Shown: one piece after another, positions 7,871-9,493 of the stretch
Layout of the letters: each line of letters starts with the position of its first letter
Numbering within the stretch: position 1 is the stretch's first letter
DNA from: Paenibacillus sp.
GTDB taxonomy: Bacteria; Bacillota; Bacilli; Paenibacillales; YIM-B00363
Assembly (NCBI RefSeq): GCF_035645195.1
Contig: NZ_DASQNA010000008.1
Location: 186,001-250,000, forward strand
Reading direction: 5' to 3'
Length of the DNA stretch: 64,000 bases
Made by a program: the position numbers and the translations under genes
The notes under the pieces: generated by a model
The model's input: only the letters and a program-made list of their open reading frames with translations
What the model was told of the DNA's origin: nothing
The model's database searches: none

Positions 7871-7954
7871 AGCCTGCACTTCCTCTCCAATAAGTTGACT
7901 TCAACACAAGGACACATCGAAACGGAAATCTCTATCAATCTACAACGAAAAAAA

Positions 7955-9493
7955 TTATAACCTCTCCATCGCGGCCTCCAGACGATCCGCCGCTTCCGCT
8001 TCAGCCTCCATCGCAGCGTGGAGACCTGCCGCCATTTGTTCCCGGTTCGACGTAACGCCGCCTATACCGAACGGGAAGGCAGGATACAGCTGCAGCAAAG
8101 CCTTGCAGACATGCTCGTACCATTGGCTAGCGTCCGCCAACAAAGACCGCGCTTCGCCGCGAATGTTCCGGTCCAGGGAGAGCTGCTCCAGATAACGGCA
8201 GGCATGTTCGCGGGCTTCCGTCAGGAGAGCTACTTGGTAGGCATGGCCAAGCGGGTCCAGACGGTTTTCCAAGACGGCGCTTCGCCACTCCCGGTAAGCA
8301 GCCTGTCCGAACGCAAAGCCGGGAATGCGGGGCTCTTCCCCCCGGATCTGCTTTACGATCCCGGCAAGGACGTTGCGTACGGAAACGAAAGCGCCCGTCC
8401 GTCGTTCCAGAACGGCTGCGAACAGCCCCGGACTTTCGGGACTTCTGCCTAGGCTCTCATACATATAGCGCTGCACGCCGGGGCGGTGGCTTCGGCCGAG
8501 CAGCACGCGCTCCGAGTCGTCGTACCCGTAAACTAATGCGAACTCGTTGATCGACAAATTCCATACGACGGCCGGCATGCCTGCCTCCACGGCATCATGG
8601 ATCAGCTGCAACACGCCGACTTGCTCCTCCGGCCGAAGCTGCTGTCTTCCGGGACGCCCGAAGCATCGGGCGCTCCAGCCGATCCGCTCCGCAGCGCCGT
8701 AGAAGGCGTAGCTCCAGTCGAACGTCGACAGCCCCCTCCAGCCGCATCCGGAGGAAATGCCGATTCGGAATGCGTCGCCCGTCGTCCCCATGACCGTCGT
8801 AAGCTGCTGCTCCGTATCGCCCCCATACCGCAGCGCTTCGAGCAATGCCACGGACATCAGCGCATATGGACGAGAAAAACGGGGTTCGTCGAGGACGATG
8901 CGGCCCGGTTTGCCATGGCGGAGGCGATCGGAGAGATAGCGGTCAACTTCCGTTCGGAAACGCTCCTCGTTCAGCTTCGAACGGGAACGGGAAATCAGGT
9001 TATAAACATTGCTTCGGGCGATGCCGAGCGATGCCGCGGTTTCATCCGGCTGAAGTCCATCTACCGCCGCGTCCATCACGCGTTTCGCGTTGCCGCGCAG
9101 CAGCGAAGACGAGCGGTCCGCCGCTTCGCGGCGCAGCTCGCGGTCGAGCAATCCCTGCTGCGGTTCGTCCGGACGGCTGCACGAATACGGATCGGCCGAC
9201 TCGGGCAGCTCGCCGAACGGCTTCGTCCGGTTCTCCGCGCCGCGCAGCATATTCATCGCCGTCCTGCGGACGAGCTTCCTCAGCCATGGGCGGAAGCGTT
9301 CCGGGTCCCGAAGGCCGGGAAGCTTGGCAGCCAGCCGCAGGAACGATTCCTGGACCGCATCCTCGGCCAGGTGGGCGTCCCGCATAATATCGCGGGCCCA
9401 CAGCGCCGCATCCTGCCTATACGCCGCAATCAACTGCGTCAGCGCGTCCCGATCGCCTGCGGCCGCGCGCGAAATCAAATTCTCTTGATTCAT
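7955..9493 (-). CDS. ECF sigma factor fused to a large papain-like (C39/BtrH-like) domain
   Basis: 512 residues. Residues about 1-170 are an ECF sigma factor: region 2 (AEDAVQESFLRLAAKLPGLR, RFRPWLRKLVRR) and region 4 (DGLQPDETAASLGIARSNVY, NLISRSRSKL). The remaining ~340 residues are unusual. They contain GISSGCGWRGLSTFDWSYAF, then AGMPAVVWNLSINEFALVYG, a strand pattern like C39/BtrH-type papain folds, with Phe/Glu where a catalytic His would be expected, and a helical end. There is no anti-sigma gene next to it, so the C-terminal domain may itself control the sigma part. I chose ATG 9493 because GACGAGG lies 8 nt upstream; the TTG at 9541 has no RBS. The fold call for the second half is a guess from pattern. 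Confidence 0.8.
   Translation of the reverse strand: MNQENLISRAAAGDRDALTQLIAAYRQDAALWARDIMRDAHLAEDAVQESFLRLAAKLPGLRDPERFRPWLRKLVRRTAMNMLRGAENRTKPFGELPESADPYSCSRPDEPQQGLLDRELRREAADRSSSLLRGNAKRVMDAAVDGLQPDETAASLGIARSNVYNLISRSRSKLNEERFRTEVDRYLSDRLRHGKPGRIVLDEPRFSRPYALMSVALLEALRYGGDTEQQLTTVMGTTGDAFRIGISSGCGWRGLSTFDWSYAFYGAAERIGWSARCFGRPGRQQLRPEEQVGVLQLIHDAVEAGMPAVVWNLSINEFALVYGYDDSERVLLGRSHRPGVQRYMYESLGRSPESPGLFAAVLERRTGAFVSVRNVLAGIVKQIRGEEPRIPGFAFGQAAYREWRSAVLENRLDPLGHAYQVALLTEAREHACRYLEQLSLDRNIRGEARSLLADASQWYEHVCKALLQLYPAFPFGIGGVTSNREQMAAGLHAAMEAEAEAADRLEAAMERL

Follow-up and report, generated by a model that had tools for sequence, protein, structure and literature searches.

An ECF sigma factor fused to a BtrH-like pseudoenzyme domain in Paenibacillus, with sigma-linked relatives across Paenibacillales

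The majority of ECF sigma factors are known to relay signals from the envelope, working via membrane anti-sigma factors. The stretch of Paenibacillus DNA analysed here (64,000 nucleotides, hereafter the window) encodes an ECF sigma factor with an extra C-terminal domain and no adjacent anti-sigma gene, which raises the question of what this domain, referred to below as the tail, is and how such a sigma factor could be controlled. The relevant features, all on the reverse strand, are as follows:

7955..9493 (-): ECF sigma factor–BtrH-like pseudoenzyme fusion, 512 aa, ATG at 9493, stop at 7955
9236..9433 (-): sigma region 2, residues 21-86 (PF04542, 40.5 bits)
8972..9067 (-): C-terminal part of sigma region 4, residues 143-174 (PF08281, 20.5 bits, below the family cut-off)
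7964..8860 (-): BtrH-like domain, residues 212-510 (hhalign, 276 columns)
8858-8860 (-): Leu212 codon, at the catalytic Cys position by residue alignment
8543-8545 (-): Glu317 codon, at the catalytic His position by residue alignment
7911..7937 (-): putative ECF promoter TGATAGA-N14-TGTGTC before the VOC gene, a single match in the genome
7103..7879 (-): two-domain VOC (glyoxalase/bleomycin-resistance superfamily) protein, start GTG 7879 or TTG 7870

The 512-aa protein contains regions 2 and 4 and lacks region 3, as expected of an ECF sigma factor. The TIGR02937 sigma70-ECF model matched residues 16-176 above its cut-off (E = 3.3e-16), and Pfam placed Sigma70_r2 above its cut-off and Sigma70_r4_2 below (20.5 bits vs 25.7). 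The sigma part comprises residues ~1-180 and the tail domain approximately 300 residues, which bears out the ECF sigma factor with a long tail that the preliminary description had reported; the segment quoted there, PAVVWNLSINEFALVYGYDD, was confirmed in the protein and Glu317 was checked. Three named Paenibacillus species have this tail at 81-84% identity, and the open reading frame is therefore not a chance one. The sigma-tail gene is flanked upstream by a divergent metallo-beta-lactamase-fold gene and downstream by the co-directional VOC gene, in which Pfam sees the second of the two VOC domains, and then by a convergent UPF0047 gene. None of these flanking genes encodes an anti-sigma factor, in agreement with the preliminary description.

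A search with the tail alone gave no Pfam or NCBIfam match up to E 1. Comparison with PDB sequences gave nothing better than E 0.7, a PDB search with the tail profile had a meaningless best E of 1.3 and the full protein had no match in PADLOC. The Pfam BtrH_N model (PF14399) recognised 0/21 tails at E ≤ 0.1. For a profile comparison, reference BtrH_N proteins were gathered from 60 related genomes and nine of them were aligned. When these nine were compared by hhalign with an alignment of 21 tails, the probability was 98.3% (E = 1.8e-14) over 276 columns spanning both halves; it was 98.0% with 102 fused and split tails and 97.7% with 27 homologs from outside the order. Controls reached at most 1.08% (50 column-shuffled alignments) and 0.78% (reversed alignment). 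On the strength of this profile similarity the tail is a divergent, full-length BtrH-type (papain-like) protein by common descent, and the BtrH-like origin first suggested for it is supported. The ~340 papain-like residues first proposed call for refinement: the papain-like part matches the BtrH_N model (134 positions) approximately in length, and what remains of the tail is a second half, probably helical, as in BtrH-type proteins. Structure prediction, which had been proposed as a check together with a fold search, gave low-confidence models only. AlphaFold, run on the tail and on the whole protein with six- and seven-row alignments, reached mean pLDDT values of 54.6 and 51.2, and Foldseek found no match to the tail model at E ≤ 0.001. 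The predicted secondary structure of the tail, alpha/beta and then all helical, agrees with the BtrH type, although this is weak evidence.

The preliminary description had proposed that the catalytic His was lost. Glu317 does occupy this position in the window protein, and Leu212 stands at the position of the catalytic Cys, so the alignment indicates that both catalytic positions are lost in the window tail. It should be noted that the equivalence of Glu and His rests on an ungapped alignment of E-F-x-x-x-Y-G with H-Y-A-V-L-Y-G, where hhalign places a gap. Across all 102 fused and split tails the Cys position was Ser, Thr, Ala, Leu or Phe and never Cys (Ser/Thr in 93/102), and the His position was Glu in 88/102. 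A further 27 tails, nearly all of them second and third copies within Paenibacillales, had Ser/Thr (n = 17) or a gap (n = 8) at the Cys position and Glu at the His position in 24 cases, while 26 tails from outside the order had Ser/Thr (n = 17) or a gap (n = 6) and Glu in 26/26. Such conservation is what would be expected if the tail were still an enzyme in which Ser/Thr and Glu have replaced Cys and His, its fusion coupling metabolism to transcription. We consider this very improbable, as Leu or Phe takes the Cys position in the clade of the window protein, which lacks the Ser/Thr common among its relatives, and as attachment to several types of regulator, described below, fits a regulatory module better.

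The window's own genome contains one tail copy. Tail matches were found in 7/8 genomes of the family (own genome included), with up to 8 per genome, and a profile of 21 tails (A1) matched 211/392 Paenibacillales genomes, about half of those sampled, in 37/49 genera. Regions of ~11 kb, shorter where a contig ended, were fetched for 100 loci, which were picked from ~150 matches listed and are mostly the best ones rather than a random sample. Nearly all of the inspected loci were wired to a sigma factor: the best tail per locus was fused to sigma in 50 and immediately followed a sigma gene of its own in 49, while at the last locus (L113) the contig begins too close to the tail to tell. This answers in the negative the earlier question of whether the tail always occurs fused to sigma domains, and the tail is also found on AraC and WYL regulators. 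For split pairs, an ATG start could be located for the tail in 42/49, 41 of these at −4 to +57 of the sigma stop and one at −283. Stop-codon readthrough from sigma into tail was considered for the split members and rejected because the two share a frame in 13/49 pairs, close to the third expected by chance. At L018 and L023 the sigma and tail open reading frames are in one frame with a single stop codon between them; the frame statistics suggest that these too are plain adjacent genes. In a FastTree phylogeny built from 156 tails, 102 of which were labelled, a single change suffices to explain the fused/split state; deep branches are weak in this tree, some long branches meet, and L146 and L152 were relabelled split with sigma read in another frame.

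One clade carries one or two extra tail homologs directly behind the sigma-tail gene (L063, L065-L068, L072, L080, L089, L101, L104, L128, L132, L133 and L147). These are either separate or joined in one protein of 800-900 aa, some with a LamG-like N-terminus, and a CxC..C motif was seen in the five last copies inspected. No relative of the tail was found in viral contigs. Twenty plasmid records matched, mostly via the sigma part, and one of these covers ≥ 80%, in a region of Paenibacillus cellulosilyticus without annotation.

Outside the order the domain is found on other regulators. In a sample of the phylum 33/398 genomes matched the tail profile, 28 of them outside Paenibacillales, and the sigma HMM detected none of its targets at the out-of-order loci examined, within flanks of at most 3 kb. 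Here the tail is C-terminal to an AraC-type HTH in L204 and L205 (confirmed by Pfam) and, as read by eye, to an AraC-like HTH in L208, L210, L211 and L212. In L186 it follows an HTH-WYL part (WYL E = 1.6e-16, HTH read by eye), and in L194, L196 and L200 separate tail genes lie beside AraC+GyrI regulators. That the domain recurs on transcription regulators of unrelated kinds is our chief reason for regarding it as a regulatory module.

The VOC gene adjoins the sigma-tail gene in 5/5 relatives examined (the flank of L009 covers 1.5 kb), and four other neighbours in the window were not found at the sigma-tail locus of these five. The sequence TGATAGA-N14-TGTGTC sits between the sigma-tail stop and the VOC start and is kept in L029, L030 and L031 as well as in the otherwise diverged spacer of L009. 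The wider pattern TGATAGA-N13..15-YGTGTC has a single match in the window's own 5.95-Mb genome, at the VOC gene, and occurs at the same place in G001, G005, G185 and G223, of which G185, G223 and G005 are where L029, L030 and L031 come from and so not extra cases. Across 8 genomes the pattern matched 9 times, with 5 of the matches at the VOC gene and 4 elsewhere (in G223, in G005 and one shared by G002/G003, none with a convincing gene behind it), and its backward control had 0. Because the pattern was drawn from the relatives which it matches, weight can be given only to its being unique and to its persistence in the L009 spacer. The region upstream of the sigma gene in the window showed no TGATAGA site. 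The VOC gene, named at the outset as a candidate target, is probably one. At L032:6019-7043, from a metagenome-assembled Paenibacillus, an ortholog of the window gene lacks most of the sigma part and has a frameshifted tail, which may be due to decay or to an assembly error; the VOC gene persists beside this broken copy, as does a variant of the promoter site with GGATAGA and CGTGTC at the same spot.

We lean towards the reading that the protein is a cytosolic ECF switch gated in cis by a dead BtrH-type effector-sensing domain, with the VOC gene as its main target. The BtrH-like domain would bind a cytosolic small-molecule ligand in or near the old active site. Without ligand it would hold the sigma part in the wrong state; with ligand the sigma part would join RNA polymerase and transcribe a very small regulon via TGATAGA-N14-TGTGTC. 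This regulon would here be essentially the adjacent double-VOC gene, as with ECF41 and its neighbours, and the VOC protein might bind or convert a related compound. The tail would then sense or inhibit, as was originally proposed, and would act much as GyrI-like domains do on AraC regulators. We infer ligand binding, the direction of control, the reading of this site by the sigma factor and the function of the VOC protein.

Related bipartite, promoter-like sites were also seen in other clades, mostly upstream of the sigma gene. The split clade has TGATAGA-N14-GGCATC in 30/49 (shuffle maximum 4). A TGTCAGAAA..AGTC site was present in 10/18 and a TCAGA..GCATC site in 6/15 (shuffle maximum 3 for both), TAAGA..GGCATC lies between tail and PQQ gene in 3/3 (shuffle maximum 2), and GTTCA..GGCATC in the clade with solute-binding proteins (SBPs) was found in 3/4, not above the shuffle maximum of 3. 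In the VOC-fused clade the sigma side lacks a clear site (3/8 vs a shuffle maximum of 2); read backwards by eye, its upstream region has TGTCAGG-N-GGCATC facing a divergent VOC-GyrI gene. A single promoter sequence for all clades is ruled out, the sites being clade-specific. Dyads in the regions behind the tail also exceed the shuffles (14 vs 4 in the split clade, 6 vs 3 in the tail23 clade), which may be due to related coding sequence; the shuffles, which ignore the kinship of the sequences, therefore overstate significance. The split-clade pattern had 13 matches in 15 genomes, with 10/15 having one, 9/13 lying just upstream of a tail match and 0 in the backward control. A lone TGATAGAT-N14-GGCATC is found at G000 C18:80565-80592 in the window's genome, whose single tail match belongs to another clade.

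We also scanned the partners of the tails. The scan covered 50 proteins: the window VOC, one tail fragment and the products of 48 genes called downstream of tails, some of them possibly miscalled. Pfam identified GyrI-like (n = 8), Glyoxalase (n = 5), solute-binding (n = 4), pentapeptide (n = 4) and PQQ propeller (n = 3) proteins, and the neighbour at L075 is 86% identical to the window VOC. As controls, 60 of 97 possible genes from the same loci were drawn and 50 scanned. Pfam matches among these included Glyoxalase (n = 3) and solute-binding (n = 2) among the families listed (25 of 112). By local HMMs GyrI, pentapeptide and PQQ were found in 0/50 controls, VOC in 7/50 partners vs 4/50 controls, and the sole control matching the SBP HMM was a sigma-SBP fusion. 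GyrI genes were enriched at positions +1 to +3 on the same strand (15/177 vs 5/474 elsewhere, P = 8e-6), by a local HMM which was partly drawn from the cases that it counts; three of the five cases elsewhere come from a single clade, in which they are divergent VOC-GyrI genes. When the six seed proteins of the HMM were set aside, the counts were 9 vs 5 (P = 0.003); the rows are not independent in either comparison. Enrichment of VOC near family members was not significant (14/177 vs 19/474, P = 0.07).

Fusions among these domains were also found. Single sigma-tail-VOC-VOC chains occur at L077, L143, L144 and L145 by a local two-domain HMM, with Pfam finding one VOC domain in L145. GyrI is fused to the tail at L123, to VOC at L143 and to pentapeptide and DinB domains at L153. 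At L157 VOC stands behind a LamG-like part, and a LamG-like part with two tails also occurs; LamG was identified by Pfam at L074 and, below the cut-off, at L068, the other LamG parts being read by eye. The PQQ partners carry lipoprotein-like N-termini.

SBP_bac_1-type neighbours were found at L138:3853-5091, L158:6085-7320, L160:3879-4982, L162:6189-7313 and L077:6869-8053. All five lack a hydrophobic N-terminus, with a maximum 15-residue hydropathy of −0.07 to 0.40 (the starts of those at L138 and L158 set to an internal Met) compared to 2.68 for a periplasmic binding protein encoded in the window, and the signal-less SBPs beside sigma-tail genes are presumably cytosolic, going by their N-termini. 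A 596-aa fusion of an ECF sigma factor (residues 5-173) and an SBP (residues 215-578), which has no tail, is encoded at L100:2368-4155 (+) beside a split sigma/tail pair; its relative in G185 is also 596 aa and 72% identical, and a third candidate of 607 aa in G005 is 29% identical to L100.

These partners are the basis of the strongest rival to the tail as sensor, namely that the tail is a protein-protein hub and that a partner (VOC pair, GyrI, LamG or signal-less SBP), as a separate chain or fused, binds the ligand and toggles the sigma factor via the tail, the VOC gene being both target and feedback sensor. Unrelated ligand-binding folds do swap at the same place, and fusions join them with one another and with the tail. 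In nine genomes, including G002 (the genome of L138), an SBP match follows the tail match at a distance of 32-86 bases, and the SBPs at the four fetched loci have no signal peptide. The existence of tail-less sigma-SBP fusions, two of them closely alike, argues that ligand-binding domains can be direct controllers of sigma factors here. However, several sigma-tail clades have no recognisable, conserved partner, and outside Paenibacillales, where partners were sought with GyrI and VOC HMMs, the domain sits directly on HTH regulators. We regard a hub as rather unlikely.

A wider form of the cis-gated switch would be a modular class in which a BtrH-fold pseudoenzyme gate, fused to or translated right after an ECF sigma factor, is combined with swappable drug- or sugar-binding domains (VOC pair, GyrI, LamG, pentapeptide, DinB and signal-less SBPs) that set the specificity. 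Each unit would have its own promoter and would mostly control itself and its partner. Such a class seems to us quite possible, if still somewhat doubtful. The roles of VOC, GyrI and pentapeptide proteins often involve antibiotics, so that self-protection against natural products is a fair guess as to the role, not a result.

The BtrH-like tail represents a large, little-described family which mixes sigma factors with ligand-binding domains in Paenibacillus-like bacteria. If the cis-gated switch is correct, an intracellular-ligand branch would be added to ECF signalling, many BtrH-like proteins that lack annotation and occur on sigma factors or on AraC and WYL regulators would gain a role, and sensor modules would be available which are testable with one promoter each. 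If the modular class is correct, sigma factors rather than repressors would sense intracellular antibiotics or sugars.

Saccharibacillus, which belongs to the Paenibacillaceae, is of relevance to the naming of the protein. The preliminary description had held that a C-terminal extension would in itself be a new type of sigma control; this did not stand, as at least 26 ECF groups have regulatory extensions (PMC8999054). One of them, ECF264, is listed under "Others" with the model WP_037286607.1 from Saccharibacillus sacchari (PMC8999054, Table 2), and the sigma-tail protein could be a member of a described group, perhaps this one. The listed extension and the source of the model member speak for this; the comparison is with a table row rather than with sequence, and the label would not explain the tail. 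We think such membership possible, with doubt the heavier side, and it is a matter of naming that is compatible with the mechanisms above. In the open literature searched, no paper came up that describes a sigma factor with a BtrH-like extension, and the main text of a classification of papain-like proteins which describes BtrH_N has no word beginning with "sigma" (PMC10318531).

Among the known systems, ECF41 (Ecf41Bli, SigJ) is similar in having no obvious anti-sigma factor and a fused C-terminal regulatory domain, with adjoining enzyme-like genes as the only detectable targets (PMC3426412). Its extension is SnoaL-like (PMC8999054), whereas the window tail is BtrH-like and has no SnoaL match in Pfam up to E 1, which sets it apart from both ECF41 and ECF56, defined by SnoaL-like extensions. 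ECF42 likewise combines a sigma factor with a long extension and a conserved associated small protein, but the extension is TPR and the partner YCII-related (PMC8999054), and the window tail has no TPR match in Pfam up to E 1. ECF238 (CorE) has a Cys-rich, metal-binding C-terminal domain; the tail, with four scattered Cys (250, 277, 432 and 463), does not show this feature. BtrH itself is an acyl carrier protein:aminoglycoside acyltransferase (PMC10318531). The tail resembles BtrH_N (PF14399) proteins by profile over both halves and differs in having Cys and His replaced, in being unseen by the Pfam model and in being linked to regulators. AraC+GyrI-like regulators also join an HTH to a small-molecule domain, and tail homologs are found beside them and on the same type of HTH; the window protein differs from these in that it carries a sigma factor in place of an HTH activator.
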